From Chrysoperla carnea (taxonomy: Eukaryota; Arthropoda; Insecta; Neuroptera; Chrysopidae): a DNA stretch of 64,000 nt. Where the stretch lies: NCBI RefSeq assembly GCF_905475395.1, contig NC_058341.1, positions 34,611,501 through 34,675,500 on the forward strand, in the 5' to 3' direction. A model generated the notes under the pieces. The model did not search any database, was not told the origin of the DNA, and saw nothing but the letters and a program-made list of their open reading frames with translations. This document shows, in pieces, positions 1-44,700 of this stretch; the first letter of the stretch is position 1; each line of letters begins with the position of its first letter. The position numbers were made by a program, and so were the translations under genes.

Positions 1-121
1 TCCAATTTTGATTTGAAATATAGTTAGAACTTACAGAATTAGACAAAAGTAAAGCGCAAAATTGTTCGATCTAAGTTTTGAAAAGTAAACAAAAATAAAT
101 TTATTATTTCGAATTGTTCAG

Positions 122-157
122 TATATAAATTACGTACATTTGCATACAAAATCAGAA
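122..157 (+). promoter_or_regulatory. Possible core promoter of protease homologue A
   Basis: A TATATAAAT box at 122-130 is followed 32 bp later by an initiator-like TCAG (152-155), and an ATG lies at 173. This spacing matches the TATA/initiator pair of gene B at 3972/4004. In such AT-rich DNA a chance TATA is possible, because the neighbouring gene lacks the two 5' exons its paralogues have. Confidence 0.35.
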
Positions 158-172
158 TAGCGTAGTAAAAAA

Positions 173-14767: not shown

Positions 14768-17700
14768 TTACTTCAGTTGTACCAACACCATGAAGTAAGT
14801 TACAGTTGCACCAAGCACCTTAAACATTAAAGCAGAGTACACATAGTTAGTAAAATGATAAAAAACAAAAATTTCACATTAGAAGCAAATCAAAGTTTAA
14901 TCACCGAAGCAAATAAATCTAATGAGACTGTGAAGAATTTTGCACCAGATATTGACATGGCTTTTTGACATTGTTGACATACAATTTGTACAAATGTTTT
15001 TGCTTCTTCAGATCCATCATACCAATGGCAACTGTATGCAGCTTCCATTACCGATGAGCTCTAAAAATTATGTAAGATATTATGGAAATTATTTATAAAA
15101 ATTAACATATTTTTAATTACCTCTTCAATAAGTCTATTCCCAAAGATACAGAATAAAAATACTTGAGCCAGAGCATAAAATAAGTATCCCAAACATGATG
15201 CTGCATATTTATTTACACCATCAATCTAGAATAAATTTAAACATTAATAAGTCAGATTCTACTTTAAAATTTCTGTGGACTGTATTCTTGGGAGGATTGC
15301 CAAAGCAATCGAAACCGGTGTAGCTAATTAATAATAATTTTAAGGTGATATATTTTTAAAAAAATGCAACCCTACTTTGATTATTATTATATATCTATTT
15401 TTGTTTACTTGGTTAATTTTTATACGAAAAATTGCGAAATAAAAATGATCAAAAATGTCTTCTAAACAGTATGGATTCCTATTCTTTACATGTTAAATAT
15501 TGACAACTTATAAGAGAAAACAGAGACGATCATAGTCAAAAAATTTTGATTATAGTTGTAAGTCATTGAAAACTACATCTTTGGAACTTTCCGCACAAAA
15601 CTACTTTTAGTAGCATGTCGTTAGAAATATCTTAAAACGATTAATTAAATGAAACGAAAAATCGGCTTTACTTTGGTCGCTTGATATGCTAGAAGTGTTA
15701 AAGTGATTGTAGAAGTCAACATATGTAATAATAAAGCTGCACCATAAGCATCTCCAATAGCCGTTACTAATCTGAAACGAATAAAAATAAACATTAGATA
15801 TATATTTTGTTTAGGTTCAATAAGTTCAAGTTCATTTTAAATTTCACTATCAATAAATTTTTTTTGAAACGATCCAAAACGTAGAAGTCAAGGCAATCTT
15901 CAATAACGCATGAAGATAAATTTTAATAATATTTATTATGTAAAATCAAATAATTTTGGACAATTTTGTTTAAATCAGTTCTTTCTAGAATTTTTTTTAG
16001 TTTTCTAAAAATCGTAGTTTTGTTTTGGCTTTTTATTGGAATATTTTTCCATACGCATTAAGGTAACAGTAAAAATTAAGAAATTTGGATCATGATGTTT
16101 AATATATAAATAAGGCAGATTGAGGAAAATGTAACTAAGAGCGATAGTAAGTTAAAGTTTTAATAAAGCTTAGTCTGATCTTAGCCAAGAAATTTTTAGT
16201 TGATTTTAATGTTAATCCCACTTTCTGTAATCTCTAATACGGTATTTTCCTTTTTTTAGAAAATGCAACAAAAAAAAAAACATCGGTACATTCCCTATTG
16301 TTTGTCGAATTTAAATGCATTATTGGAAAATTGTAAAGGGTACTACTTTTGAATGTGGTTTTCCCAAGAAAATTTCCGTAAATTTTAAATTCAATTTCAA
16401 TAGCTATGATCATACACCAAGTTTCGTAAAGGTACGACTAAAGGTTTGATTTCACACTATGGAGTATAAGCCTTATGGAATCGAATGTAATATAGCAATT
16501 GTTTCATTTCCAGACAATGCATCAAACAATCCAGATTAAGTTCTCTTCAACGAAAGAGTTTTTGGAAATCCAGCCCAATGTTCATCTTTGAGGGGACATC
16601 TCACAGAAATCATGAGGTTTACATTGATTTTCAGAGTCGATTATAAATTAACTCATAGTCGTTACTAATGAGATATAAAGATAAATTGTAAATTAGAGAA
16701 TTATCATCATCACTACATATTATAAAACAAAGTCGATTTTTCTGTCCCTATGTCCCTATGTACGCTTAAATCTTTGAAACTACGCAACGGATTTTGATGC
16801 GGTTTTTTTAATAGATAGAGTGATTCAAGAGGAAGGTTTTTATGTATAATACATCCATATTATAGTAGAGTAAGGGGTTGAAATAGGGGTTGAAAGGGAT
16901 ATGCTTCAAAAAATAAAACAGTTGTGCATCGATTAAGCTCAAATATTGACACGATATACAACCAGCTTCAAAGATCTATTGTTTTTATCTACTTTTAACC
17001 TTCGGAGGGTAGAAAGGTGTAGCGAGAAAGTGGGAAGGAATTATCGAAAATTTACAAATATACCTAAGTGGGGTATCAAATAAACGAGCAAGACGTGTAC
17101 ATTACAAAACTGTTATCCAACGCAAGGAAATGTGGAGGGAGGGATGCAAGTGGGGATGTTGCTCAGCAAAGCGGGTAGTTCACGATGAAAGTGGTTTTAA
17201 CATATAATTTTTTATATAATTACTACTTGTTTCGCTTCTTGTACCTGCTATAGAAGCTACATCTTCAATAGGCTATAACCTTTAAAATGCAGCTTCTGAG
17301 CTTTGCAAGTTGCAAGTTTGCTGATAGCAACTTCATTTTGAAAGAAAATAATTGTTTGATTCGTTTAATATTTCACGTTCGATAAAAAATTAATAATGAA
17401 ACGAAGACAGAGTAATTTTTATTGGTTAATATGACTAACTACTGATAAAATTTCCATTTGAATAATATATGTGATATGACCGAGACTTTGTAATATATAA
17501 ACTTTCAAAATTAAAATTTTTTATTCTTAAATAGATTGTATTGAATTTAAGATATCAAAATGAAATTACAATTATTTTTAATTGTAGTATTTGCTGCATT
17601 TATTTCATGTAAATATTTCTTGAATTTCGATTTATTTTTGTAATTTTACTTAGTTACATATTTATTTGGATATAAAATAATATATAGGTGCACCTCGAGC

Positions 17701-20700
17701 AGAAGTTTCTGATGATGAAGGCGTTCAAGATAGAATTTTAAATGGAGATTTGGCAGAGGCCGCGAAATATCCGTTTATTGTGAATGTTCAAGAACGAAAA
17801 CCTGGTGGTAAATATATTTCCTCTGTGGAATTCTTTATATTCACCTACGAATAGTAAAAAGTGGAATAGGAATAATAAATTTACTAAATATATTAAATTT
17901 CAGAGAAAGATCCCTTCAGATTTTGTGGAGCTTCAATTTTAAGTGAAAAATGGCTTTTAACAGCAGCTCATTGCTACGACCATGTAAAATCAACAGCTGA
18001 TATTCGTATAAATGCTGGTGTTGTGGATGCAAACAATTTTGGTTCGAAATCTCAAGAAATTTCAGTTAAAAAATGGTTTATACATCCGAAATACAGTCGA
18101 ATGTACGTATGCGTTAATTTTTTTCAAATTATATAATATTTACCCTTAGAACTCAACAACTTCTCAAAACTCTTGAATTTTTGCATGGTTTTTTGAACCA
18201 GCATTTACACTGCAATGCAATTATAAGGGGAGGGGCGTGTAGGTCTTTCAAAATTGAGAATATTGAAACAATAATCTATCACCTCAAGGGCACTATTATG
18301 GTCCACAGTTCTTTCAAGTGAGGATAGTTTTTATTGAAAGTCTGGTACATTTTCTTATTTAGAAATATTCTCGGAAATAATGACGGAATATGTTCATAGA
18401 GGTAATTCTAATGATTTAAATAAATTTTTAGTGCCGTACACGATGATATTGCATTGATCGAATTATTAAAACCATTAAAATTCAATAAGCATGTATCGCC
18501 AATCAGTCTTCCACCAGCGGATTATGAGCCAACTGGAGAAGGTAAAATTTTAGGATGGGGTGCAATTGACCCTAAAGAGGAAATCCGTTCTCAATACTTA
18601 CGTGAAGCTACCATTCACGTTTCAACCGAAGCAGGTATGATAAGCAACAACTAATTCGCAAATTTAGAAAATAACTATAAAATAATTTGTCTTAGAATGT
18701 AATAAACATGACAGTCCAATGTCAGCCGCTACCCAAATTTGTCTTGGAGTCAGTGATAAAACTACAGCGTGCCAAGGTGATTCTGGTGGCCCATTTATGC
18801 AAATGATTGTAAGTTATATATAAAAAAAAAACATAATTTTTTCCTCCTACATAACGAATGGGAATTAAGAAATAAAAATCAATGAATTTTTTTTAGAATA
18901 ATAAACCATGCATTGTTGGTGTTACTTCATTTGCTGGTAAAGGATGTACTGAAAAAGCTCCATCTGTATACACTAAAGTGTCCGCTTACAAATCTTGGAT
19001 TGAAGAAACAATGAAAAATAATCCATAATTAATTTATTTTAAATGAACTTGTATATATTTTGTTGTATTTTTTAAATCGAATAAATAAATAATATTTCAA
19101 TTATAAAACATAAAATAATTATTTTCGTATTTAATAAAAATTGAAAATATTGCAATCAATTATCACTCCCAAATCCCAACTGTTCCCGCATGACATGTTA
19201 AAAGTATAACAAAAATCAGTGAAATTTACAAAATTTAAAAAAACGCCAAGAAATGTTTCGGATTTGGAACCCTTAACTAGCACTTGAAATATACCCAAGA
19301 ACATTCTCCATCGTCTTCCTTATAGCCATTCCCAAACTGAATCGATTTTAAAAGTCATCGAATCTTTTTTAGTTGTTTCGGGTACGAAACTCTAAGCACG
19401 CACTTGAAACCTTGCTAAGAACACTCTCCATTAAATAACCGGTTCATTCGTGTAGGAGCTAAAATGCTACAGGCAGACATACACTCAAACATCGAGATTA
19501 AACTCATTACACCCCTCTTTTTTGTTCGGGGGATGGATTTCTACCTCTTAAACACATATGATCGAGATTTTATTGAATGCGAAAATTAGGACTTTGCATA
19601 TAATGAAGATCAAAAGCTAAAACAAACGAAAATTTGATTTATTTTCCTTGGCCATGGTTAGCAAACCCAGACATACATGATTGATTAGTCTTGGTCATGG
19701 CTTTGGGAAAAACGGGCGAACCAAATTTTTGTTGGTCAAATTTATTTGATATTTGAATAAAGGGATATACCAAGGCTGGTTCGTCCAACGTTTGCCCAAC
19801 ATCTATCGTCAAGAGTGGTATTTGACTACTTGCATACTGTAAAATTTTTTTTAATTAAGCGTATTTACAACAACGATAAAAGAATTCAACGCTGTTCAAA
19901 CACAAAGTTACCATATTCCCGTTTTACATAGAATTTTTTTCCGATTAAAACAGTGAGTATACTCGTCGAAACAATTAAGTTTACGATTAAATGTCTATTA
20001 TTAAATTGTTATGGCCAACAAGAAAAATTTTGATTTTAGAGTAGAATATTGGAGTACCATTTAGAAGACGGGTGAGTACGATTTAAGAAACCGGCTGCTA
20101 AAATGGAACTTTTATATTAAACCACTCTCCCCTATATTGTTTTAAATAATGTTTTCCTATTTATCCTATTTTTTAAACATATTAATGATTTGAATAAATT
20201 GTTTTATAAATAAAAAAAGATTTGTTACTATTATTATTGATTAATTTTATCACAGCAATTCAATAATATATAAAACTTCCAAAATTAAATCTTTTTCAAT
20301 CTTCAATAGATTGTGTTCCACTCAACAAGAAACGATTATGAAAATACAATTACTTTTAATTGCAGCATTTGCTGCATTGATTTCCTGTAAATATTTCTTA
20401 ATCAATTTTAAATTTATACTTTGAAATATAATTAATTAGTTCACTGAATATTTTATTAATTAGAATAACTATTTTAGGTGCACCTCAAGCAGCGGTTTCG
20501 GAGGACGAAGGAAATCAAGATCGAATTTTAAATGGAAATCTAGTAGATGCAAAGCAATTTCCATTTATCGTATCTGTTCATGAAAGAAAACGTAATGGTA
20601 AGTCTTATATATTTTTTTAAACATTTTTAAGCTTAATTAGAAAAACATAAAAATTAATTTTGTATTTCAGAAAATAATCCTTTTAAATTTTGTGGAGCTT

Positions 20701-23700
20701 CAATATTGAATGAAAAATGGCTTTTAACAGCTGCTCATTGTTACGACCACGTAAAATCGAAAGCTGATATTCGTATAAATGCTGGTGTTGTCGATGCATT
20801 TAGTGTTGGCGCCAAGTCACAAGAAATTTCAGTTGAAAAATGGTTTCTTCATCCCAAATACGTTCGAATGTATGTATATATTCTATTACGATAAAGACCT
20901 ACAGAAATATGATTCAATTAAAATAGATAACTACAGCTTTCAATTAAAGCTATTAACAGACGTTAAAATTAAGTTGTCCATATTGTGGACTGTCTAATAA
21001 AGACTCATTTTTTTTAGATAATAATCACCCACATTTTTTGAATCCGATGTTTATTTTTATAGTTATTCGGTATCTTTATTCGCTTTACTCTTTATTTGAA
21101 AAAAACTTGTTCTGAGAAAAATGTTTCTAATGTTTGATCTACTTTTGTTATACTGTATCGATAGAGTTGCGACTAATCTTTAAATTTAATTGATTTTTAG
21201 TGCCGAACATGATGATATTGCATTGATATTGTTGTCAAAACCATTGAAATTCAACAAATTCGTGAATTCTATCAGTCTACCACCGGCAGGCTATGAAGCA
21301 ACTGGCGAAGGTAAAATTATAGGATGGGGTGCAATTGATCCTAAAGAGGAAATTACAAGTCAATATTTACGTGAAGCCACCGTTCATGTTTCAACCGAAG
21401 AAGGTATTATATAATCGACAATTGTGTGAAAATTCAGAAAACATCACCAAAAACATTTGTTTCAGAATGTAAAAAACATGACAGTCCAATGTCAGCAGCT
21501 ACCCAAATTTGTCTTGGTGTAAGTGATAAATCAACAGCATGCAAAGGTGATTCTGGTGGTCCATTTATGCAAATGATTGTAAGTTAAAAATTTTTTTGGA
21601 ACAATTTTTTTTCCCAAGTAACTCCTCTCTTAAATTTTGAAGTTTTCACTTTTAATTAATATCCCAAAAATTAGTTTTATTTTCCTCAAATTGTTAGATT
21701 TTTTTGGCCAGGTACTTTATTCCCTATATCTTTTGCAAAAAAGATATGACAAAACTATTATTTTTTTTCTAATTTTGTTACCTGAAACATTCAAAAGACC
21801 TCACAGAATATAAACGGCTAACAGTTTACAGCCAAATTAGCAGAAATTTTGCTAGTTCAGCATGCAATATTTTAAGCAGGTTCAAATTTGGAAATATAAG
21901 CAGTTTTTAAAGTGTATGGAGTTAAAAAGCACAATCTTCTTATGAAAATATTGTAAAAGAAGAACAAATTATGCTTTTAAAAACTTGGATCCGAAAACAA
22001 TAAAAAAATTAAACTTTTTTTTTTTTTAGAATAATAAACCAGCTATTGTCGGTGTTACATCATTTGGAGGCAGAGGTTGTAATGAATATGATGCTACTGT
22101 TTACACTAAAGTGGCGGCCTACTTAGACTGGATCAACGAAACTATTAAAAATAATTCATAAAAGCTTTATAAAATTTTTGTATATTTATTATTAATTTTT
22201 TTAAATAAATAAGAATTAATTAAGTAAATTTTTCTATTATTATTATTATCATAAATACAATATGTTATTGAATCAAAAAAATTATATGTTTTCCCCCTAA
22301 AGACTAAATCAACCGTACCTTGTGTTTTTATACCATGGCGTTGAGAGTCTTCGCCTTTCCATAGCTAATCTAGCACTCTTATCAGTCATAAATTTATGTT
22401 AGTAGCAAAATTATTACGTATAATTAAAATTAATTTATTCCTTGACCCATCTACATTTTCAGTACAACATAAACCACCCCATTATATACATATGACAATC
22501 ATTTACCTGAGGAAATATTTAAGGTTTTTTTATTATCTCTACCTGAATACTTATCGTAAATAACAAAGAAATTCAGCAATTCAGGTCAAAAATATAAAAT
22601 AAACAAAGTCAAACATACAAGCAGTGATCCTTTTCCGTAACGTGAAAATATGTATCCATATAAGCCTTCTTACCCGACTGTCAAGAAGTGGTCTATGTAT
22701 CTACTATAAGGTACCTACTTTTAGGAATTGCTAAAGGAAATGGAATTATTACTTTTTTTTGGAAAAATTTCTGCTCCGTTCATGAATCTTTGAATGACAG
22801 TATAATGTAATAAACTCAAGAAATTGCATAAGCCACACAAAAAATACTGTTCCAAAATCCGAATCCTTGTCTAATTTTAATGAATTAAAGTTCAATATTT
22901 AAGCATGCCATCAAATTATGGCTAAAGTTTTTAGTTTATTTAAAGATTGACATGCCCTTGACTTACAAATATAATAAGTAAATTTAGAACGATACAAAAA
23001 ATGCAGAAAGATAGCCATGTTATTATTATTATTTTTTAATTACATCTTTTTCATAAAGATGAGTTAATTATAGATTGATACTTAGCTCGAAAAATTGAAT
23101 CGGTTTCTGATATGGATTCCATTACCATCAATTGTTAGAATTCAGTTAGGGGACAATCTTTGGTTCTGTACATGTTGGGATTCGAGGAATTGAAGAAAAA
23201 AGTAACCACAAATTTCAAATTGGGAGGAAGGAAAAAAAGGAATTGTAATTTATATTACTAACAAATGAATTTACAAAATTAAAAAAAAAACCGACAAATG
23301 TTTCGTGTACGGAACTCTAAGCTCGCATTTGAAACATAGCTAAGAATACTCTCCATTAAATTAACTTTTTTCTCAAAGCCTTCTCCACAATTAACTGCCC
23401 ATCGCCTCATTTTTAGTTGTTTAGGGTACGGGACCCTTAAATCGTTCACTGTTCGAGAGCTTCGATGCTACAGACACACATATAGGCAGATAGGTACACA
23501 TAACGGACCAACTTATTACAAAATGTGCTGACAATTTGACGAGGAAACATATTGGTTGTTGGAGGGAACATATAAGTCAAGAACTATGTAGAAGTTGTCT
23601 GGAGTTGATACTAATCTTTTTTTTTTTTTAATTTTGGCGTTGTTAGCTTAGATGATTCAATTTTTTATTAATGAGATAAATTTAACGATAAAATAAAATT

Positions 23701-26700
23701 TTATTTTTGTATCCAATTTTGCGAAAAAAAATTTCTATAAAAAGCAAAAAATACTCTACAATGCATTGGTTTTAAGTATGACTTCATTACTTAATGTTAT
23801 TTTGATTTCATTTGCTGTGGGCTTGGCTTTTGGTAAGTGTTTTAATATACATATATTATTTAAATAAAAAAGTTCTTAAATTAGAAAAAGCATCACGATG
23901 ATTAATGATTTCTGAATCACATACAGCCAAAAAATCGGTTGAGTTTTGGATATGGCTATCAAAAGATTTCGTTAAAAATTCTGGTTTAGGTACCCCAAAA
24001 ATTTTTGATCTGCAAAATGAATTTTTTTATTGTTTGTATATCGATGATTGACTAAAAAGAATACAAAGTTGTAAAACAGCGTACGGATTCTGACATATTT
24101 TGGGATGAGAAAGACTCTTTAACAAATCCAGGGTCTTTTTGTAAAGCTAATTTCGGATCCAAATGTCATTTATTCGGCAGTTTAGTACAACAATCCGAAA
24201 AATTGGTTCCGGAAGAATAGATTTGTAAAAAATAGGCTTGGCAAAAATAGACACGAAAAAAATAGATACAAAAAACATTCATTACTATCGAATGGGTGTA
24301 TTCTTCTCAGTTACTTCTCATTTTTTCCGGGACTATTTTTTCAGAATTCACTTCCTCTTTTAAACACAATCTCTTTCAAAATATTTAAACGAAAGTTTTT
24401 ACAGTTAATGATAAATTTTATCCACCGTTAATTGGTCATAGTTGTTTAACTAACGTTTTTAAGAAATACAGATAATGCAACATTAGCAATTATCTTTGGT
24501 AACGTTTGAGAATTAATTTTACAAAATAGTATGAATAGTGTAGCTTCTACTGGCTGTATAATGCTGACCGCCTAGAATATTTTGTAAAAATAGTAAAAAA
24601 TATAAACAAAAGTTGTTTCGTTTTCCATTGTTATGAAATGATCGAATAATAAAAATTAATTGACCAAGTTTCTGGAGAAGGTCAATATTATAAACAGTGT
24701 TAAAATATTCTTTGTTCAAATATGAAGTGGATTTTCATACACTTATTAGACATTTAGATTTACTAAAATATAATATTTTAAATTACAGCCGCCCCAGCAG
24801 AAAATGCAACAAAAATTGAGGCACCTAAAATTGAATTAGTTCAACCACAAGGAAACTCACTTGAAAATGTGGAACTAGCAGAAGATATGAATGATCGAAT
24901 TCTAAAAGGAGAAAAGGCACCAAAGAATGCATTTCCATTCACTGTTTCCCTACAAATGCAACATCCAAAAGGTAAGGTTTTTGAAAGTGGCATTCAATAT
25001 AGGATTGAAGCAGTATAATATATATTTTTTTAAAGTTATTTGCAACAATTCAAAAATTTGTGTAGCCTTTGCCTCAAGGAAATCTGATTATAATACGAAA
25101 ACGGTGTTTTTTGAATGCGAAGACAGGTAAATTTTCAAATATAACACGAAGCTAAAATTAATGAATATTTGTTGGATATCTAAAAACGGACAGCGTTTTT
25201 TTCCATAATTTTTTAGTTGTTTTTCCCATCAAAGGGAACACCGCCAGTTTGTACAGTAACAGGCTTGTGTTACTGTACGAACTGTATGTGTACACAAATT
25301 TTTGATTTGATGAAAATATTTTCAAAATATGTACCTGTCATATTTAACTGATTAAAATATGTTAAATAATATATTTAAATTTTAGGACCTCCTGGTGCCA
25401 TGCATAAATTCTGTGGTGGTTCAATAATTGCTGCTAATGTAGTTCTAACAGCTGCCCATTGCTTCGAACCAATGCCAACAACCACCATTTATATCAGAGC
25501 TGGTAGTACTCACGCTTTTGATCCAAATGGTCAATTAGTTGCTGTAGCACAAATTATTAAACATCCTTGCTACGCGTAAGTTTTCTTATTTAAATTAAAG
25601 TTCATAAAAAGTTGAATTAAAATTATTTATAATTTCAGCCCACAAAACATTTATCAAATTCCACACTTGAATGATATTGCACTTTTAATATTGGCTGAAC
25701 CTCTTAAATTTTCACAATCAGTTCAACCAATTTCAATAGCAACTGATGCACATAGTGCTGAGAGCGCCCGTGCAGGAAAAGTTATGGGTTGGGGTGCCAC
25801 ACATGGCTCAGATCATTCTCAATCGGCAATAGAATTGCTTTACAAAGATATTCCTGTTATTTCTCCTAATCAATGTGCAAAATATTTCCGAGTACATTCC
25901 AATGTTTTATGTGTATCGAATGGAGACGATTCCGAAGCTGGACCTTGTGTAGGAGACTCTGGTGGCCCATTCATTCAGGTAAAAAATATTTAAACTAATA
26001 AAATAGATATAAGAACAGAGAATAAAATTTAAATAAATTTTCACTACCGCTTATAAGTACGTACTTTCTAAATTATAAGCGAAAGACCGGAAAAAGTAAA
26101 CAAATTTCGTTGTTTTTTACGCATTCCTAAAAACATCTGTTCAATAATTCATTAAATTATTGTTTTTATTTGCAGAAATCTGGAACTAAGGAAATATTAG
26201 TTGGTTTAACATCATACGGATCCACAACCTGCGGTAAAATACCAACCGTTTATACAAGAATCAGTAAATACCTTGCTTTTATTAATGATGTTTTGCAAGG
26301 ACGGCCAATTTACCCAGTATGTGCGTAATCGAATCAATTAATGTAATTTATAAACAAAATAAAACAATTTAAAAACTCAACTCAATTTTTAATTATTTTA
26401 TTTCAAATATTTATTTTATTTCAAGCAGAAGTATCTCCAAGTTTAATGTTCTTATCGGGGTATTCTAGAGTTCATTCCAAAACAATTGTTATTTTCAGTT
26501 TTGAATATGAAGGGATGTTAATATTCGAGAATAGACGATGCAATGTTTTGAATCAAATTTTATAAATTTTCAATCTTTAAAAATGTCATAAAATTGGCTT
26601 TTAAAATTGTTTATTAAGACAAATTAATCGACCGAGTAATATTCAATATTTTTACTTTAACAAAGAATGAATTTGTTTATAAATAGAAAAGACTATAGAA

Positions 26701-29700
26701 AACTTTTATTAGTCGAAACATTGTATGAGACATGATAATCTCCTCTCGTTAACTCTAGAAATCTAAAAATGTATTTCTAAAGACTAGAAAAGTGAAAGAG
26801 TATAAGACTTTTTACTTCTCTTCGAAGTTCGAATTGATCTGACAAAAATAGTAACGCAAAAATCCCTGATTATATCGTCAAAATTGGCGACCGACTAACA
26901 TGACCAGGAATTTTTCCCATAATTAAACATTATTTTTATCAGAAGTTTAATAACCGAACAGAACTGATTTCTGAAATGTTTTTGCTAACGAAAATATTCG
27001 AAAATTGACTCCTAGTATATCTACTAAAAGACTGAAATGAATCCTGCATTAATTCTTATAAAATTTTAAAAAGTATTCTGTATTCTCACATAACATTGCG
27101 AATTTTCTTATAGGATGGAGATATACATGCTAATTCACAGTACAAACGCGATTACAAAGCAACTAAGATGCGTTAAAATTTTAGTATTTACCAATAAATA
27201 CACCTTTAGAAACTGTGCTGAAGCTTTCTAGAAAAATAAATTGAAAATTTCATTTTTATTTTAATTGGTTGTTGTTATTCGGACGTAAACACAGCCTAAG
27301 AAAGAGCTGCACGAAATCCACTGCGCTTCCAAGTATTAAAAAATTACTTACTTCTCTTACTCCATCAGTTTTATTGAGTCCATCACTTGGAACCAATAAC
27401 AGTGTATCTCACATAAGCTCATAATTTTATTGTCCATTGACTTCTAAGAACTGTTAAGAAAACTAACTCTCTTCTTAAATATTAGAGCAACCCACCTTTC
27501 TCCTTCACTTCCTTATGATGATTGTCGTTTGCATGGTCCTCAAGTCTTGGCCTAATCTTGTGTAACGGACTAAACGAATATATATATTGTATTATGTTCA
27601 ATATTCTAACAAATAGCCATGTGTTTAATCGGCACATGTATTTCTGGCTTTAATCTATTATTAAAATGTATCACATGCTCGCTATTGCTCATCTTCATAG
27701 TTGATCTAACTAATTTATTTTGCAATGTGATGAAGACTGACGTTGCCTATTAAAAACTTAATAATAATAAAATTAAAATTAAAAAATATTAAAATTAAAC
27801 CATTTATAGACAACTTTATAATTTATTTTTCTTTAGATGTTTATCTTCAAAATATAAATATACCTACATGATGACAGGAAATAAAGTAATTTTCTACTTC
27901 AATCAAGAAAAATATATTAAAACAAATTGTTAATTTCCTTCATATTAAAACTAATTTAAATATAAAGTTATTTTTAAGAGTAAACAAATTTTAAATTTAA
28001 CAGTTTCAATTTTCATCTCAACATATAAAAGTTAAATTTTTTTGAAGAATTGTGTTGGTTTCATTGATTTTTTGATAAAATGGCTTCATTCAGCCTTTAT
28101 TTTCTTTTAATTACTTTTCTATTTGCTGGAATTGTTATAAGTAAGTACGCATTTTTCTTCTCTTCATTATGAAATTTTATTAATGACAATGGTTGGTTAT
28201 CCTAATTATACACTCCTCGATCCAGGAGATTCTTATCTTGTGTGTAATCATTTCTTAAACCTCCACATGTCAGAGAGATGACATATGTCAGAGATAAAGG
28301 CTAAAATGAACTGGCATTTTAATTTTCTAAGAACACGATAAGTGATAATAATTTTGTTTTATTAGAAGTAAAGACGTTAACGATTATATCTTCATGTCAG
28401 GACATACAATGCCTGATAGATGAGCGCTGGTGTTGACGGCACATGTTCACTTTTTTACGAAATATTCCAAAACATATAATCAGAATTTCTAAAAGAAATG
28501 TTTGTGAATTTACTTTTTTCGCCTCACTATATTTACAATTTATATTTCCAAAAGAACATAAAAAATGATTTATGTTAAATAGCTTTGAAATTTTTTGAGC
28601 TTCTTTGACGAAAGCGAACTAGTAAACATAATCGCTCTCGGATGCAAGGCATATTTCATTTCTACCTAGTTTAAATAAAAATATCTAAAATCCAACCGTC
28701 TTGAAATCAAATTTTTCGTGGCCATTCTAGTAAGTCTTCTATATCATAATAAAGTAATAGCAAGATTAATAGTGAGACGAAATAAGAGTGGCAGTTTTAT
28801 CACTACTTGGCAGTGTGAGCAATTATAATTAATGGGGCGGTAAAATTGATCACACTGTCGTCGATTGGATAAAACGGAGTAACCAACTCCACCCACATCA
28901 TTAATTGTATATTGGATGTAGTTTCAAATAAATAAAATAAATTAAATATTAATGATGTGGGTGGGCTCTTTTATAGATAGAAATCTGAAAAACAGAGATT
29001 AAACCCCATTATTATTATTACATAGTTATTTATTTGAAGAATAAAAAACAATATATCTCGTTTATAAGGTGCACCGGCTGATCCCCCTATAAGTGATGAC
29101 GAGATAAGAATGGCACATCCAATACTCAAAGAGGTGGACAATTCCTCATCAGAAGAAAGCAGTTTAATTGACGATATTATAAAAGTACCAAAATTAGTTG
29201 GGAAAAATATTGCCATACATGGACGAAAAATAGCAAATGCAACAATTGATTTTGCTGGCAATGCAATGGATGGAATCAGTGAAGGCGCAAAAAAATTTGC
29301 GGATAAATCCTATGGCATTGTACAAGATATTGCACAAAGGGCAACAGAATTTGGCAGTAAAGCTGTAGAATTTACAATGAAACCAATCAAAGCAATTGGT
29401 GATAAATTTAACAAACAGCCACAATTTAAATGGGATTCAGAAGAGGATGTTAATGCAGTAACTGACATTGAAGAATTTCCTTATATTGTCTCACTTCACA
29501 CCGAAAGATCATTGTGTAAGTTTATGTAATTTAGATTCAAAAAAGCAGGAGGGGAGTTTGTAAAACATGAGAAACATAATTTGTTAACTTAATTGTATAT
29601 ATGAGACCCCCACGAATACACTAACCCATGTTGCCGGAAATGTTGCTCAAATTCACAAAGTATTGCAACCCAAAATTTTTCCCCATTTTAGTGTGCTTCC

Positions 29701-32700: not shown

Positions 32701-35700
32701 GTTAACTAGTCGTGTGTAGGTGGCCAGTCAGTTATTTGTAAACAGTGGCTTCCTGTAAATTTGATACCATAATATATTAAATAAATATACAACGGTGAGA
32801 ATTTTTGGGACTTCCATAATTGTTGATTTGCTAAACATATTTTAGTTTAACGTGCTGCATTTATTATTTGAAAATGTCTCAGTGACAAAAACAAAACGAT
32901 ATTTCGACGAGTATGCATTCCTTAATTTTGATAGAATAGTTTTAAGTGAAGGTACTACGAGCTGTGGTTTTTTCATCGTGGTTTATTTGAAAATATAATT
33001 TTTTCTAGAATTGCGTATGTGAATACCGGTAGTCTTGTGATGTAATTGTTCCAAATATCAACTTAAATGATAATATTATAAAATATACTAATAAACGTTT
33101 AAGGTAAAACTTATACCGGAAACTTTAAACCACATTCCAAGATCAACATTTTTGAATGATATATTTCTATCGAAAAATAATTATTTACATAAAAATTATT
33201 CTAGTGGGTGGAAAATTCTCTAAAATCAAAACCCTATTTATACTACTTTGGGTAGACATTACAAATTTCTTTCTGTTATAAACTATTGAAAACAATATTT
33301 CCAAATGTATTTCATAATATGAATAATAAAATGAATTTCATGACGACATTTTTGCCAAGAAGATTAATACTTATTGTCTACGGACGACTTATTTTGATGT
33401 TTAAATAAAATAATTTTATGTTAAAAATAAAATTATTTTATGGGTTTAGTAAGCCAGTTTATTTTATGGCAACTTTTTAGACAAAATATAACAGACTTTT
33501 AAATTAAAACTAACAAGCCTAAGATAGAGTCTGATGCGACCATTGTGGTTCACACGAATAACTTCCCAGCATAATAAAAAGTAATAAATGATTATAAAAA
33601 ATGTAAAAAATAAAAACTCGACCGATTCGAAACGACTCTATCGATGTTATGAAATTTTTTTCGGATCATAATGCCATTAATACTCTTTGATCGACACCTC
33701 AACGACGTTGATGTCATTTTTTGTACGCGCGATATCGATCAGGATAAAATTTTAGAAAAAACTCACCAGACTCGAAATGGCTCGACCGAATGTTATGAAA
33801 TTCTTTTCGGATCATATTGCCTTTAACACTGCTCGATCGACACCTCAATGAAGTCGATATCATTTTAACGTACACTCACAGTGCTAAAGCCTTGTCCTAA
33901 CCATGAAACGTAAAGATTAGAAACGAGAGACATATTACAATAACTTCCTATATTGGGAAGTTAAAAAAAAGATTTTATTAGAAATTTTAGTTTAAGTACA
34001 AATACAATTCAAAGAAACCATTCATGTGCCTTATTTTAGTATTCTTCATAAAAGCGTCCTAATAAAAAACTATGTCATTGAAAAAGCTCCCACCTGGGTA
34101 TTTGTTAATCATACATATCCGGTTAATTCCGAAATTTGGCTAGCCTTAGGCCAAAAATTCCAGTTTTTTTTTTCCTTTTTGGCCATAAGCCGAATTCGAT
34201 TAAGTCAAATTGTATTGTATTACTTTTCAGTACTAGTATTTGATTAACGAAAAATTTTTTATATTTGGGCTAAGAAATTAGAATGATATGCATGATTCCT
34301 TCCTTCTTGTTTTGATGTAGATAAAAATATGTAAATTAAAAACAAACACAAAAAAAGTTCTTGAATATTAAGAGTAACTACAAATAATGATGCTTAATCA
34401 TTAATCACAATTTACAAATAAACACAGGAACCAGTTTTCTGCGGGGGTCTTACACAAATTTCAATGCTTATCATTTTTTTACCACAAACATTAATTTGGA
34501 AAGGTATAAATATAAATTGTTTAAGCCATATTGTAAGTTTTATTGTTTCCATTTACATAAAGTGTACCTGTTTGTATATTGCAATGGCTCAATTATTATT
34601 TTCATTGCTTGTAATTACATCAGTAATTCTCACCGCACAATGTAAGTTAAAAGCTATTCATTATAAATTATAAATTACTATTACTTATTCATTATAAACT
34701 TTATTCGTTTATTTATTTTAATTCCATTACCTACCTTTATTATTTTACTAATTATATTACATTGTATTCATTTTTTATTGAAAAATTTATCTGTTGACCT
34801 TCAGTACGGTTTTCAATGTGAAGAAGATCTTGTAGTACAAATTCGTACAAATTCTTATAAAAATATTTCTTAAAATTTTCATTTTTCGATATAAAAATTT
34901 TAATTTAAGTTATTATTAACTGCTTCTAATTAATTTTGGAATCAATCTGTGTCTCAATCTATCACTACAATATTTTGCTAAGAATATACTTTTAATATAT
35001 AGATACACAAAATCAAACTATATACATCTATTTATTTGAATTTCTGTTCTCATGTCTAGGCGAAGATGTAGAAGAAGGATGGATAAATGGATACCAACAT
35101 ATTTTACCTTATGCTGTTTCGATTCAACATAGTCCGGATGGTAAGATTAATATAATAAAATATATGATCTTATTTTCATTAAAATTATGTTTTTAGGATC
35201 CAAATACGATCATGTTTGTACGGGAAGTATTATTAAAAAAAATTATATTTTAACATCAGCTAGTTGTTTTGATAAATTAAGCGATGATGGTAAATTAGCT
35301 GTAAATGTTGGAGTTAAAGAACATCACGATGAAAAAGGACAATTTGTCAATGTTCAAAAATTGGTACTACATCCTTCATATAACAAAGAGTAAGTAAAAT
35401 TTCGGATTTATTTAGCCTGGAATGGTCATAGGATGCAAGTTAATAAAGGTTGTGCGAACGATATACATGATAGGACAGAGAATTGTTTGCGATTTTGAAA
35501 ACTTTAAAAAAATGTCATCAATAGTTTTCAAAATATCTTTTTACCACCTTAAACCACGTAAAAACATTTGAAGAAATTAATTGTATTCTAAACTATATTT
35601 ACAAAGGTAATTGGGCTTGTTTAAAATGACAGATGAGCGTTGGATTTTGTGCGTACGACCAAAAAACAAAGCGTAAATTTTTCTGTATTTAATAGAAAAT

Positions 35701-38700
35701 GCATAATGTAAGTGTCCGCACAAAGCCGATACGCATTGTAATACTAATCAAGGCCATTGGAAGTATAATAACATTTTATTTACCACTATTACATGTAGTT
35801 AAAAATGTTAAGGAGAAAATTTGGAATAATTAATGGGATTTGTTTTTACAGACATCTTAAAATCACATAATTCTCGTACCACCCTGTATAATAGGATGGC
35901 TCAAAAATCAGATAGAAATTTTAAAAACCAATCACGTTTTAGATCGTAGAACTAAGAAATTTTTTTTAAACTAAATTATTGAAATTTTTTTTTGACTTTC
36001 AGAGACCCACTTAAGAAATTCGATATTGCTGTATTAGAACTTGCAGATTCAATCAAATTTAAACGTGAAGCACGAAACATTAATCTTCCTTCTAAAGATT
36101 TAGTAGCAGAAGGAAAAGGAGAATTGGTCGGTTGGAATGGATTAACATCAAAAACTCAAAAAACTGTTACCGATAAAGTTTACATTGCATCTGTATCTGT
36201 TTTGCCTTCTGATGGTAAATGAAACATTATTTACTTATAATTAAATTTTAGAAAATATGTTATTAAAAATTAAATTTAACGTTTAGCGCCATTTTCAAGT
36301 TTTCGTACTTTTACCATTTTAATTTTGGCATTTTTATTCGCAAATTTTTTTTCGTAACCTTATTCATCGATTGGCATAATATTATATTTTCTATTGAATA
36401 TTTGCTGGTATGGCTAGTGCTAAAAGATATTTCAATGAACTATATCTATTTTCAGAAATAGTCATTAATTTTAACATTTAATTTTATTTTAGATTGCAAA
36501 AAATCCTACCCAGATTTAACTGATGACCAATTTTGTGTTGGAGGAGTAAATACACCAGACGCTCCATGCAAAGGAACTCCTGGAATACCATTTGGCCAAC
36601 CTATCGTAAGTGCAGTTTGTACATTCAATATTATTATCGATTAAATTGAAAAATCAATTTATTGATATAAACAAACAAAACCAATTCTTATATGTGATTT
36701 AATGAATTTCGGATGGTATTTTTACTAAACTTTGCTTAGGCCACATTTTTTAAGCAATCCGTTGCGGGGATATATGTGCTTACATTTTATTTTTCATAAA
36801 AAATATCTTTCATATCGTAAGCATATTTGTGAGGATCGATCATAATTCGTATCTTTGACTATTAATAATTGTATTTTATTCAGTGTATCAAATAGCCTGA
36901 AAACTATTATAATAGAACTGATACAAGAAAACATTAAAATATGTATTTTTGGTTACCTATGTACTACACAAATTAAACTATATTTTCTTTTTTTTATCAG
37001 CGTGGATTTACTATAACTGGACTTGCATCAAGTTGGCCAGAAACCTGTGATGGTCCTGCATTATTTACAAAGGTCACTCCATTCTTAGATTTTATACAAG
37101 AAGCTATAACCAACTAAACCAAAGACGAGATCATCATAATAATTTTTTGAAAAGAAGTGTTTTATGAATTTTGTTGTTGTATTTTAAAAATTTAATTCAT
37201 TTAATAAACGTTAAAAATTAAAAAAATTTCTTTGTCTTTTTAGTTATATTAATTCCCTTTTTATTAATAGACTTACACACTGTATCAAATATCTATATTT
37301 ATTTCTCCCCGCCACCTTTGAGCGTCTATAGCGACATGATTTAGTTCAAATGAGTTGAAATTAATTATACAAGGTTATTAACAAAATATAACGATGTTAT
37401 AACAAGTGAAATTTACAAAATTTAAAAAATCCCCGAAAAATGTTTCGGAACATCATAGTCTTCTGGAAAATGATTGAGAAGATCATTGCCTGTTTTAAAA
37501 GTTTATTTCACATACATAGCGATCAAACTGATATCACCCCTTTTTGATTCGAGGGTTAAAAACGGCATTTAATCCGAGAAATTTGGAGATTTTCTGGGAA
37601 AAATCGCATTTTCGACATTTTTATGGCTTTGCACATCTACTCAATCTCTAAAAATTGAGCTTTAAGTTTGAAAATCAGTATGCATTGGGTTAGTATTAAA
37701 TAGATATCTTTTGGTAGTATAGACACTCAAGTTTCCCTTACCTTTTTAACGTCGAAATGTCGTGGATTTTCATGATATAAAGCGCTTGGGAAATTATAAT
37801 TACAATTTTATTCACGTGTTAAATAAAGTAAGTGTAGCTTGTATTAAAATGTAATAATAATGACAATTTATTATTGTACATTAAAGACTCAAAAATTGGC
37901 AAATGTTAATTATAGTTACAAAGATTAGTTAAATTTTCAAAGTTATTAGTTACAAAGGTTAGTTGAAGGACAATATTTTCTTGACATTTTAACGTTCTAG
38001 AAAACTTGAATCACCCATACATACAGAAATGACCTTTTTCTTTACTAAAAAAAGTTACTGCTTATCCAGAAGCATTCGCAGTACTATGCGAAATGTTGTC
38101 AAGAATTTTTTTACTAACAAATTATATTAAAATGAATAGGATTTTTTTGCAATTAAAATAATAGTATTTGAACTGGTATAACCAAAAGTAATATTTTAAT
38201 TGGTCGTGAGTAGGTGGTCATAATTTTATCTGCAAACAATGGTTTCCTGTGTATTACTTACCATAATATTTTAAATAAATAAACAACGATGGAATTTTTG
38301 GGACTTCCATAATTGTTGATTTATCTAACATTTAGTATTTATTATCTTGAAACATACAATTCAAGGAAAAATAGAAATATTCAAAAATGTTTACCTAGGT
38401 TCGACTTTATCGATAAATTTCCACGAGTACAACTTTTGTATATAACAATTCAGCCACCGTATGTTTGTGTCAAAAATTGTCAATTGATTTGAAATTTTGA
38501 GCGGTCGTTGCATGTTTATCCAAGAGTGTTTTTATGTGCTTTGTGTCCCGAAATTCCATAATACTAGATTATATGATTCTTTTAAAGTAAATCATTTCTT
38601 TTCATTTCATTTAACATTCATTGTTGTTACGGACCGACAGAGACGAGTTTTGCTCGTGATCTGTAGTCCTCCCAATGTTGTTGTCATTATGAAAAGGGTG

Positions 38701-41700
38701 GCCACATTACATATCACGAGAAGATTTTCACTTTCATTCATCAGATCACTACCAAAATTCGTCTATGTCTCTTCGCCCATTAAGAATTATTTGACGGTCG
38801 TCTATTCATAAAACTTGGTGTACCTAAATTACCGGATTAAACAAACATAATGTATTCTCTCAGACGTAGATTTAAGCTTTGTTAATTATCTTTTTTAATT
38901 TTAAAATTTTCTTGTAGTAGGTACATACATTAGGAAATTTGATTTTTTATAATATGTAAAGTTACAGGAAATAAAGTTTATTATAATTTATGACTAAAAT
39001 TTTGAACTTCCATCCTTTATTTGAACACGCATGAACAATATTTGACACAAGATTCCTTCCTCCTTTTTTTGAACTAGGTCGAAAAATGTAAATAAAAAAC
39101 AAACAAAAAGAAATCTCTTGACTACTAAGAGTAACTACAAATAATGATGTTTAATCATTAATCACAATTTACTATTAAACACAGGAACCAGTTTTCTGCG
39201 GGGGTCTTACACAAATTTCAATGCTTATCATTTTTTTTCAACCGCAAATATTTATCTTTGTTAAATTCAAAAAGGTATAAATATTAATTTTTAAGCCACC
39301 TAATTGTTTAAGCCTGTCCATATTGAAATGGCTCAGATATTATTTTCATTGTTTGTTGTTACATCAGTAATTCTCACCGCACAATGTAAGTTAAAAGCTA
39401 TTCATTATAAATTATAAATTACTATTACTTATTCATTATAAACTTTATTCGTTTATTTATTTTAATTTCAATACCTACTTTTATTACCTGACTAAGTTAC
39501 CTTTTTTTTTAAATTTAGCTCTTGACCTTCATTACGTTTTTGGTTGTAGAGGCCTAATGGGTTATAGAAACATAACCAATCCTAATTTGAATAAAATATG
39601 ATCCTAAAATTTTCGTTGTTCATTTATTATTTTTATTACTAAATGAGCACTTTTTTGTTACCGTTTATCCAGGTATCTTGATGTGTAAATATACTACGGC
39701 AAACGAAGCACTATCCGAAAAGGGTCACAAGAAAAGACCTGATCAAATATAAAAAAATTGATTGAAATTAATTGTTTAAATATCACTTATTTACACACAC
39801 ACAACATTTTTGATTTTTGCTATTAAATTGAAACGACAGCGGTTAAAATAAAATAAAAAGAAGTAGAATTTTCTAAAAATAATTTTCATCGTTTAATCTC
39901 TAATTATTTATAAACTATAAATAATATTGATTTTTGTGTTTTAAAAAAATGGGAATATTCATTTAACAAAACAGTAATTCCTTAGTTCGCAGGATACGTT
40001 ATCGATATGTACTTTGAGTTGAGAAAGTTTAGACCATATGTTTTTTTTTATTTTTTATAAATAAAAAACTACTTGTCTAATTGCCTAGGACACCTTAGCC
40101 TTAATTAAAGCTTAGTCCTTCCCTTGTTTAAAAGACAATCAAGCTATAATAGGTACGCACATATTATTATAATTTATTCTTGAATATTCTATTTCTAGGC
40201 GAGGATGTTCAAGAAGGATGGAGAAATGGATATGATCATTTTTGGCCATATGCTGTTTCGATTCAATATAGTCCCGATGGTAAGATTATGATGAAAAAAA
40301 AATAAATAAAGTGCTCCAAAATTACAGGAACCATTTTAAATTTAAATTGTTTTTTACAATTATTTAATTTAAATATTGAACTTAAGATTTGTATAGCGAA
40401 AGCTTGGGGAAATTTTAGTTAATTTTCTTTAACTTTAAACTTTTTTAGGATCCAAATACGATCATGTTTGTACGGGAAGTATTATTAAAACTAAATATAT
40501 TTTAACATCCGCTAGTTGTTTTGATAAATTAAGCAATGATGGAAAAGTGGCTGTAAATGTTGGAGTTAAAGAACATCACGATGAAAAAGGACAGTTTATC
40601 AATGTTCAAAACGTGTTACTACACCCTTCATATAACAAAGAGTAAGTAAAATTAAAGAAGACTTTAGGCTGAACTAATCGAAGACCGTAGAATACATTTT
40701 AAAGCTCCCATTATCGTCAGCATTAATATGATGTTCATAAACACAGAAATTTTGAGTGTGCATTAATTATTACAAATTTTTCTTAAAGAAAATTATTTTC
40801 CCCGTTATTAGAAACAAGCTTTAAATTTACGTTTAAAAATTTTGTATACATTATTTTTAATTTTTCAGAGATCCACTTAAGAAATTTGATATTGCTTTAC
40901 TCGAATTGACGGATCCAATCGAATTTATGCGTACTGTACAAGCTATCAAGCTTCCAGAAAAAGTTTTACCACCAAATGAAATAGGAGAATTAGTTGGTTG
41001 GAATGGATTAACTTCGAAAACTCAAAAAACTGTAACCGATAAAATTTATATTGCTTCTGTGAAAATTACATCCCGAAACGGTAGTTTAGCTTTTATTTTA
41101 CTCTATTCTTTAGTTTTTGCCAATAAATTAAATTAGACAGGCGAAAACAATAATTTTAAATATATAACTATGGTCGTTAAATTTTATAGATTGCAGAAAA
41201 ACCTACCCTGATTTAACTGACGATCAATTTTGTATTGGGGGAGTAAATACACTAGAAGCTCCATGTAAAGGAACTCCTGGTATTCCATATGGACAAGCTA
41301 CCGTAAGTAGATTTTTCAATGTATAGTAAATTATTATGGATATAATAAAATCCGATTTATAAGAGAGTTGTGTGGAATAATTGATTTTGTACTGAAAAAG
41401 TAAAATTAGTTAAATGTCAAATTTTGGTTAAAATCATATTTTGAATTTTTTTCACAATTTAAGGATCAATACTTGTTGATAAGAGAAGGAAAAAAGGAGA
41501 AGGGTTCAATCTTTTAAACTATTTATGGCATAAAATATTAAAATTATTAAATAAACATACTTTTCAGGAGGATGGTTGGACAATTGCAGGTCTTGCATCA
41601 ATTTGGCCAGAAACCTGTGATAGACCTGCACTATTTACGACAGTCAGTTCATATTTAGATTTTATACTAGAAGCTTTGAATAACAATACTGAAGAAGATT

Positions 41701-44700
41701 ATGATTATTAAATACGATAATTTTTTTGTATTTAATATTTAATTCCTTTTATAAACTTTAAAAATTAAAAATATATTCTTTGTTTTCTTTTAATTTATCG
41801 ACTTTTTAAAATTTCAGCATCTTTTTTCTCGATTTAAACTTCATCGATAGTTATCAGATAATAAATAGTGATTAATTAATTAGACGAGTCTAAAAGATAA
41901 AAATATTTCTTAATTTTTCTTCCTTTTCTCACATTTAGGTATTTTTTTCAATAATTTACTTTTTTTTTAAGAAATTGCCATTAAATGAATAAGTAATAAA
42001 TAATTGTTAAATTGTAATGAAATCACTTTTGTATCATATATAATTTTTTTTACATATTGAAACCACATAACTAATTGTGACATAAAAATAAACCTTCCTT
42101 TAACAGTACAAATTCTTCCAGTTTTATTGATGCATACTACAATTATTATTAATTACTTAGAATTAACAGTAGATCAATAATTTTTATAACTTCAATTGTT
42201 TGCAAAACAAGCGTACTTTAGGCAAAGTACATAACATTGACGTATTAAAAAAAGTATAGGTGTTTTAGGTTAATGCAAAAAATTTTACATTTAAAAGATA
42301 AAAATTATTCAAATTTTAAACGTATTTACAAAATGTTTTTGATTTTTCCAATTTTGACGAGCAACTATTTCGTTATATTGTGTCATCGTATGTAGACCGT
42401 GTCATGATGGCAGATCTAGGTGTTTTTTCCAAATTATCTCGGAGGGGGCAAACAGGTATATCCTTTTGCCGTATATACTGAATCAATTTTATGATGGAAC
42501 CTACCATTGTAAAATCATTTAACGTAATGATTATAAAAAACCAGATTTTGAAGCAAACATCGCAACTTTTCACGTTTTAAAAGTCTTTACCCATTAATCA
42601 AACTACAATAGCGATTATTGTAGAACACACAGCAAGTATTGGCAAAAGGCCTGCAAAAAGACTAAGCAAGGGGTTTATTTGTGCCTTATTTATTAAGTCA
42701 GTAATGAAATAATTGTAACCACCTCCTAGGCAGAAACTAGAAAATAAGGCATCAAAACATGTCATCTTTTGTGATCGAAATAATTGGTATTTTTAACGTC
42801 CAGTGGTCCAGCAAAACTTTTAACACCTGCTTTTTTGTAATAGCCAAAGAACCTGAATATAAATAAAGAGATTACGTTAGAAAGAGGTACATAACAATGC
42901 TAATGTACTGATTTCACTTGTGGAAGAAGAAATTAAAACTGCTTATTTATCCAAAAGGCATTAACATTCAGTATAATTTCATTTTCATTTATGGCATACA
43001 TATGCTGAACTTTTATTAGACCTTGAACTTTAAGTTTGTGTATGAAAAAAAAATTGATTGATAAAAATGTTCTTATTTTAAAAATAAAATAAAGTTTCCA
43101 AATATTTTTTATCTTCTAAAAATTAACTTGACCTTATTTTTCTGTTCAAGTCATTTATCGATCAAATAAATTTATAAAAATATTCAGTTTTAAAAAGAAC
43201 TTCAAAGATTCATTATGGTTTCCAAATTAAAAACATTATTTTTACTTTGCACCCTATTGGGACTCACTTATGGTAAGAAATTGCATATTATTGTAGCAGC
43301 TTACGTATTAAAAATTGTATTTAAATATTATAGGAGCCCCTACTGTAGAAGAAGAAATTGTTGAAGAAGATGCCGCAATTGACGTAAGAATTCGTGGAGG
43401 GCAAAAAAGTCCCGAACTACTATTACCATATGCGGTTTCTTTACAACGTAAGCAAAAATTAATTATTTTTAAATTAACAAAATTGTAATTGTTGAAATAT
43501 TTTAGAGGCTTCTAATAATAATAAATTTTGCGGTGGTGTAATTATTGATAAAAAATGGGTTTTAACTGCTGCTCATTGTTTTGATCAGGCAACAGAGAAA
43601 GATGATCTACGTTGTTTTGCTGGATCTGTTGATGGTCAAGATTACATGGGTGACGACTCAGAGTTAATTAAAATAGAGAAATATTTTATTCACAAAGATT
43701 ATGATAAAAATAATGAAGAGTAAGTTTTCATAGAAAAAAAAACTGATTGAACAAAAATTGATTAAATTTTTTGGTGTGCTTTAGTAGCGACAAAGGTGAT
43801 ATTGCGTTAGCTAAATTAACAAGACCATTCCATTTATCGAAAGCTATTCAACCAGCAACATTACCACCGAAAGGATATAAATTGGCTAGTGATGGTATTG
43901 TATATGGTTGGGGAGCAACTACCAGAAACCAGGAAGAACCTTCTAGATATTTGAAACATACAACTCTCAATGTTATTGACGATAGCAGTAAGACATAATT
44001 TTTATTTTAGAATAATATCTAAGTAATTCCGGGAAAGAGGTTAAACCCTTTTTTGAGAGCTTAAAAAATCAGAGTTTCAATCAAGATTTGAGTGCTTGAC
44101 AATTGGAGCAAAACGTTAAATCGCAAAAAAACATGAATAATAAGTATTGCATTAGTAGGCTACAATCATAGATCAAAATTTTAATTTATTGTCGGACTTA
44201 GTATTCGGACCAATAAATAAATAATGTACACGATATGTTTTATTAATTTTTTAGAATGCAAAGCTGTTTTCAAAGGATATGGTGACCGTCAATTTTGTGC
44301 AATTGGAACGTCACCTAATGCAGCTTGTCAAGGAGACTCTGGTGGTCCATTGATACAAATCGAAAAGGTAGGTTTTTAAAAGAGAGTAACAACATTTCGG
44401 ACATTTATCACTTATATATATATATTTAATTACAGAGTTCAGGAACTCCATATGTTGCTGGAGTGGTATCATTTGGAAGTCCAGATTGTGGAACAGGTCC
44501 AACTGTTTTTACAAAAGTAACCGATTATCTTGACTGGATTGAAACGACACGAAAAAACAATGCATAATTTAATTGTTAAAATAAAAAATTAGTTTTCTAA
44601 AATACAATTTATTTTATTTACCTGACAACATGCTTATGACGTTCAACCCAGTATTTTATGGCTGAGCGCACCAATAATTCTTGTTTCTTGGTTAAACCAT

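Follow-up and report, generated by a model that had tools for sequence, protein, structure and literature searches.

Arrays of paralogous genes comparable to the one described here are already known from the introns of insect host genes. The closest of them is the GMC oxidoreductase cluster of Drosophila melanogaster, which is reported to lie wholly within a single 83.2-kb intron of flotillin-2 (Flo-2), to consist of tandem enzyme paralogs oriented almost all antisense to this highly conserved host, and to be conserved in four insects (Iida et al. 2007, PMC1891103). The TipE cluster, a small family of sodium-channel auxiliary subunits encoded on both strands, occupies the last intron of CG18675, a host described as spanning ~20 to 100 kb and as correlating poorly in expression with the nested genes; its nesting has been dated to the insect ancestor, with escapes in the silk moth and the flour beetle (PMC3240667). 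On a smaller scale, intron 11 of Drosophila timeless2 carries one antisense protein-coding gene, 2mit (PMC3786989).

In the green lacewing Chrysoperla carnea, seven S1 protease-family genes are nested within the gene encoding the odorant receptor co-receptor Orco, which is needed for smell, an arrangement that is real and, for Orco, striking; no report of genes nested in Orco was found in the titles and abstract openings among the matches listed. As in Flo-2, tandem enzyme paralogs reside in one very large host intron, and all seven are antisense to a conserved host, so that the locus fits the Flo-2/GMC kind, with several paralogs wholly in one intron on the opposite strand. The gene family and the host of the GMC cluster are, however, unrelated to S1 proteases and Orco, and whereas the GMC cluster is entirely intronic in D. 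melanogaster, the lacewing array straddles the last exons of its host; enclosure of the whole cluster characterizes the GMC case, not nesting in general. With the TipE cluster the locus shares a small gene family within one host intron, although not the family or the use of both strands, and with 2mit the antisense placement of a protein-coding gene, there a single gene and here an array.

The host gene was modelled in a window of 64,000 nucleotides, the whole stretch of DNA that was analysed. The Orco coding span (14768..55296, minus strand), identified through Pfam 7tm_6 (E 4.9e-58) and PDB Orco matches, comprises nine coding exons, all on the minus strand, at 55296-54989, 54275-54139, 53836-53673, 52744-52525, 44622..44847, 15672..15771, 15225-15121, 15060-14905 and 14818-14771 (exons 1 to 9, respectively). 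As the initial annotation had proposed, these join in frame over 40.5 kb, giving a coding sequence of 1,464 nt, or 488 codons free of internal stops, with GT/AG ends at all eight introns, the lengths of which are 713, 302, 928, 7,677, 28,850, 446, 60 and 86 bp. The PDB Orco match covers residues 4-488 (E 6.1e-207), and the alignment of the joined protein with the solved Orco 9vqr is gapless at the intron-5 junction. A genome search detected no second Orco copy: eight of the 11 matches were the Orco exons of the window, and the remaining three had at most 33% identity. A receptor gene at C5:34734151-34739315, considered as a second Orco, proved to be an ordinary OR with ~30% identity to Orco. 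By this search Orco is a single-copy gene, and its reading frame is intact; the Orco cDNA of C. pallens is reported to encode 488 aa likewise (PMC12480744). Published data place the Orco of that species chiefly in the antennae.

The fifth coding intron (15772..44621, minus strand; GT-AG, phase 2) measures exactly the 28,850 bp originally claimed for it. It interrupts an arginine codon: exon 5 ends with WVERHKHVV followed by AG at the donor (AG/GTAAAT, the slash marking the splice site), and exon 6 supplies the final A after the acceptor (TTTCAG/A). The intron is long against both the mean intron of the C. carnea genome, 4,304 bp (PMC10116181), and aphid Orco, in which all eight introns sum to 5,572 bp; the accompanying statement that Orco introns are usually far shorter is plausible on this one comparison, with the aphid.

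All seven nested genes, designated D to J, lie inside intron 5 on the plus strand, opposite to the host, as first annotated, and together cover 54% of it. Their description as seven serine proteases holds at the level of the Trypsin domain, which scored above the Pfam cut-off in 7/7 proteins, but in the alignment the catalytic His, Asp and Ser with the full His/Asp/GDSGGP signature are kept by only four, D, E, F and J. Genes D (17560..19028, chymotrypsin-like) and E (20338..22161), of 271 aa each, are tandem sisters identical at 211/271 aa; F (23778..26328, ~285 aa) lacks one of the common introns, with an uncertain start of exon 2; and J (43215..44567) encodes 276 aa. The other three are S1 homologs in which, judging from the substitutions, enzyme activity would be impaired or gone. 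Gene G (28080..31636, 378 aa) bears a long amphipathic N-terminal extension and has VESGAP in place of GDSGGP, and the tandem sisters H (34584..37117, 257 aa; His57 and Ser195 replaced) and I (39328..41711, 265 aa; catalytic His and Ser lost), identical at 196/257 aa, are predicted to be catalytically dead. Each of the seven genes has a short first exon, resembling a signal peptide as judged by eye, GT-AG introns and a stop codon. Nine leftover ORFs were sampled (four in the intron, five from 49-62 kb) and gave no Pfam match at the cut-off; the two weak matches among them had E values of 0.0097 and 0.078.

The intron-phase pattern 1,1,2,1,0 is common to six of the nested genes, F being one intron short, indicating that they are DNA-level duplicates; an origin as retrocopies is ruled out by the common introns and phases. 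Substitution rates (NG86) were used for two of 11 pairs, the other nine having been set aside at dS >= 1.19, and by these estimates both young pairs, D/E (dN 0.133, dS 0.587) and H/I (dN 0.143, dS 0.414), are under purifying selection, the dead pair H/I included.

The nested genes are the right half of a single array of ~15 S1 genes that extends over 77 kb of chromosome 5 and is split in two by the last four exons of Orco, with 8 of the ~15 genes outside the Orco coding span. This continuation past the last Orco exons is new here and goes beyond what the initial annotation had claimed. Three genes occupy the left flank, all on the plus strand. One is m2A, a double-domain S1 protease whose 3' end (1..1581) falls inside the window and whose start lies 4,521 bp beyond the left edge; its second domain is without the triad. 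The others are the S1 homologs B (4019..7935) and C (9689..12109), both with amphipathic N-terminal extensions; the model of C is missing the residues directly ahead of the His motif. The two double-domain genes of the array, m14m12 and m2A, encode 520 aa each, and both keep the first-domain triad. Other S1 arrays are present elsewhere in the genome.

The same species is reported to possess a tandem S1 array of many paralogs, the NVSP venom proteases, known from the larval venom-producing tissue, the CNS and the defence gland (PMC12758981). That set likewise includes double-domain S1 proteases, with which the triad-less single-domain NVSPx11 groups. The array nested in Orco may be the published NVSP array, a guess to which we give slightly less than even odds because one detail of the report does not match, namely that one member of its double-domain group is without the triad, whereas here both keep it in the first domain. 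The passages describing the NVSP genes contain no coordinates or sequences, do not mention Orco and do not explicitly place the double-domain genes in the array.

Phylogenetic analysis was performed on 18 domain-level models, with the double-domain genes still unjoined, the C-terminal end of m02 wrong and the gene at -162 kb as the outgroup. A single clade for the seven nested genes was rejected (AU p 0.0024); as a further new result, therefore, they are not one lineage. F and G group with B and C from outside Orco (99/99), and a branch that is not starred (84/87) joins H and I to m12 and A, both of them second domains. The adjacent sister pairs D/E (100/100) and H/I (100/99) are recovered as well. 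The best tree implies four changes between inside and outside, two of which are forced by starred branches alone, and the clustering of these labels relative to shuffles is weak, with 49/500 shuffles as low. The tree has long branches, and 5/15 inner branches are without support.

Two routes to the nested state can be weighed against this pattern. Tentatively, and at well under even odds, Orco exons 6-9 were duplicated into the middle of an existing downstream protease array, with loss of the original copy, and half of the array was thereby swallowed at once. This scenario would explain why genes on opposite sides of exons 6-9 are related (F and G to B and C, H and I to m12 and A) and why the seven do not form a single clade, and it takes one event where protease movements take at least two. 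It has to contend with the failure to find remnants of exons 6-9, whether close to exon 5 or farther off within the 284 kb around the window (all non-Orco matches had E values of 0.19 or worse), with the long and partly unsupported branches, and with gene conversion or an old rearrangement, either of which could mix both sides. Alternatively, and at only slightly lower odds, the proteases reached intron 5 in at least two separate events, either transpositions or unequal exchanges, and expanded in place. D/E and H/I are adjacent sisters inside the intron with moderate dS, from which it follows that some growth took place within it; yet several entries are needed, all in one orientation and into an array continuous with its outside part. 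A simple block duplication of the array with exons 6-9 was rejected, since the order of related types differs between the two sides.

Signals consistent with autonomous transcription were found at both ends of most nested genes. A TATA-like box is located 42-71 nt upstream of the ATG in five of the seven, compared with 30 of the 512 plus-strand ATGs of the intron, the nested genes' own included, an interval that was picked after the positions had been looked at; the 250 nt upstream of H and of I contain none, and a box at 42-71 nt occurs in only two of five outside genes scanned (m2A and B). AATAAA or ATTAAA is present within 90 nt past the stop in all seven, a frequency given without a background; in J, AATAAA is at 44580.

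The most likely reading, with a probability of about 0.78, is that the nested array is tolerated, has promoters to itself and serves other tissues and stages than Orco does. We infer that in C. carnea Orco transcription would traverse the array's right half, the 28.85-kb intron 5 being spliced out, and that each of the seven nested genes would be driven on the opposite strand by its own promoter. Secretion of the proteases is probable and may take place in larval venom-producing tissue and elsewhere; larval venom tissue seems no worse a guess than the gut, because the double-domain kind is reported among relatives of the C. carnea venom proteases. Since Orco, chiefly antennal, and the proteases are probably active in different cells and stages, the nesting would be tolerated rather than regulatory. 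Against simple tolerance counts the spacing at the right end of the array, where only 54 bp of intron separate the J stop from Orco exon 5 and the 3' end of J nearly overlaps the exon-5 splice donor, leaving room for interference.

An antisense switch, in which Orco transcription silences the nested proteases and vice versa, would draw on this same spacing, on the orientation of all seven genes antisense to Orco within a single intron and on the expression divergence of Drosophila nested genes, which has been attributed to transcriptional interference (PMC8467205). Nevertheless, it is improbable: the eight array members beyond the Orco coding span would, barring a very long Orco 3' UTR, escape it, the antisense GMC cluster of the Flo-2 intron is described as having a complex expression of its own (PMC1891103), and the poor correlation of the TipE-locus genes with their host points the same way. 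More improbable still is the compound proposal that equates the array with the larval venom proteases of the lacewing and has an antisense stage switch make adult-antennal smell and larval-gland venom production mutually exclusive at this locus. Finally, that Orco is broken, or that its 15-kb and 44-kb parts are separate pieces brought together by misassembly, for which no supporting point was found, is rejected, given the absence of any N in the joined 284 kb around the window, the contig N50 of 67.8 Mb (PMC10116181), the lack of another copy of either half in the genome search, the exact phase-2 join, the gapless protein of the same length as that of C. pallens and the presence of one and the same protease array on either side of exons 6-9.

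With the lacewing locus, one more enzyme family joins those known to form antisense arrays inside a conserved insect gene. With the last exons of the host lying within the array, it offers a clean test of the route of nesting, that is, whether proteases moved into the intron or exons into the array. Orco is a common knock-out and RNAi target in insects, and in C. carnea, an insect used in biological control, extensive deletions at this locus, or manipulation of the Orco promoter, could affect the protease array too.

Orco, the odorant receptor co-receptor gene, was located in the window (C5:34611501-34675500) by tblastn with a Drosophila Orco query, whose matches covered the full set of nine exons, on the minus strand. 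In a spliced alignment, confirmed by a last verification, these exons join in frame over a coding span of 40.5 kb into 1,464 nt (488 codons, no stop), with GT and AG ends at 8/8 introns and a phase 2 intron 5 of 28,850 bp (44621..15772), as the initial annotation had proposed. A splice acceptor immediately precedes the start codon, suggesting that another exon lies 5′ of it. Searching the genome (559 Mb, 337 contigs) with Orco gave 11 matches, namely eight Orco exons in the window and three other receptors of 25-33% identity; the 48-bp exon 9 was absent, probably being too short to score. According to the available text of PMC12480744, the Orco cDNA of C. pallens measures 1,467 bp (488 aa), as long as our model, which argues for the splicing of exons 5 and 6 together in a relative, a length informative on splicing rather than on intron size in C. 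pallens. An ordinary odorant receptor gene (L031, C5:34730501-34740500) lies on the same strand, ~67 kb upstream of the first coding exon of Orco.

Intron 5 does hold seven genes, D (17560-19028) to J (43215-44567), all on the plus strand, opposite to Orco, each with GT-AG introns and a stop codon; their spans sum to 15,672 of its 28,850 bp (54%). The intron phases are 1,1,2,1,0 in six of them, F being one intron short, and the first exons, judged by eye, encode putative signal peptides. The name 'serine proteases', initially given to all seven, stands as a family assignment (Pfam Trypsin over the cut-off in 7/7 proteins) but not as a statement about catalysis: in the alignment, His, Asp and GDSGGP are kept in D, E, F and J, whereas G carries VESGAP in place of GDSGGP, and H (34584-37117) and I (39328-41711) have lost the catalytic His and Ser. 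Among solved structures, D is best matched by chymotrypsin (E 3.5e-34) and almost equally well by plasma kallikrein (E 6.6e-34); residue 189 of D is Thr, Asp at this position being a trypsin feature. Pairwise dN/dS is low both for D/E (0.23 by NG86, 0.10 by YN00) and for H/I (0.35 and 0.15), so that the nested genes appear to be maintained, even the catalytically dead pair H and I, which probably has a non-enzymatic role. TATA-like boxes occur 42-71 nt ahead of the ATG, an interval picked after the hits were seen, in D, E, F, G and J, in two of five outside genes scanned (m2A and B) and at 30/512 plus-strand ATGs in intron 5, the nested genes' own included; H and I have none within 250 nt. Since the stop of J ends at 44567, with AATAAA at 44580, and the Orco donor on the opposite strand begins at 44621, all within 55 bp, the 3′ end of J is squeezed against the Orco splice site. 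On the Orco strand, AATAAA occurs 99 times within intron 5 (raw count).

The array is larger than first described, its exons reaching 32 kb left of the window. Within 284 kb (the window with 200 kb of sequence on its left and 20 kb on its right) it comprises ~15 genes across 77 kb, seven nested and eight outside the Orco coding span (one of the eight on the minus strand), a lower bound because of the exon search cut-off (E 0.001). One further relative lies at -162 kb (negative positions being left of the window), and more occur elsewhere on C5 and on other chromosomes. Orco exons 6-9 (1.0 kb) sit between the outside gene C (stop ends 12109) and D (start 17560). At first impression m14m12 (-14801 to -9115) and m2A (-4521 to 1581, running into the window) looked like two neighbouring genes each; they were replaced by single double-domain models of 520 aa and ten exons with canonical splice sites, each with two Trypsin stretches, the first domain intact and the second without the triad. 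Long N-terminal extensions in G (29069-29515), B (4641-4979) and C (10167-10478) form strongly amphipathic helices (mean moment 0.37-0.47 vs 0.20-0.22 shuffled) and occur on either side of the last Orco exons; that of G, scanned alone, matched no Pfam family at the cut-off. The His exon of C (10618-10726) lacks the residues usual ahead of the motif, and C is incomplete there, as a model or as a gene. Short dispersed repeats, 81-87% alike and some inverted (5276-5510, 8515-8708 and 62532-62758; 31946-32335 with -29972 to -29570), are probably small mobile elements.

A tree was built from 18 domains, of which seven are nested and 11 lie outside Orco; a single clade of nested genes was rejected (AU p 0.0024). 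F and G cluster with outside genes B and C (99/99), H and I with m12 and A, the second domains of the double-domain genes (84/87, not starred), and the sister pairs D/E and H/I arose in place. The nested/outside label changes four times on the best tree, two changes being forced by starred branches; shuffled labels gave a mean of 5.7 changes, and the label clusters weakly, since 49/500 shuffles were as low as 4. Five of the 15 inner branches were drawn open. We infer that the most economical origin would be a single event in which Orco exons 6-9 moved into the array and their first copy was lost; no relic of these exons was found in the window, 200 kb to its left or 20 kb to its right.

The suggestion that the Orco and protease expression programmes may exclude each other is unsupported; Orco of C. 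pallens is expressed chiefly in antennae, as far as the available text states. Identity with the C. carnea venom array (PMC12758981, whose text as available lacks coordinates) falls a little short of an even chance: the array here has double-domain genes, a kind also reported among relatives of the venom proteases, and triad-lacking single-domain relatives (H and I), but both of its double-domain genes keep the triad in the first domain, and other S1 arrays exist in the genome, for example at C1:54.47-54.50 Mb.

Antisense arrays in introns of conserved insect genes are a known kind, because, by the available texts, the D. melanogaster GMC cluster lies wholly within an 83.2-kb intron of the oppositely directed Flo-2, a nesting conserved in four insects (PMC1891103), and CG18675 is host to nested TipE genes (PMC3240667). 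From similarly partial sources, the Orco introns of an aphid, the one species covered by our length comparison, total 5.6 kb (PMC9147661), and Orco of two beetles has ten introns (PMC6720082). The nesting is real and was correctly described, striking for Orco and with precedent in kind; within the literature searched, what is new is the host, the protease family and the splitting of an array by the last exons of its host.
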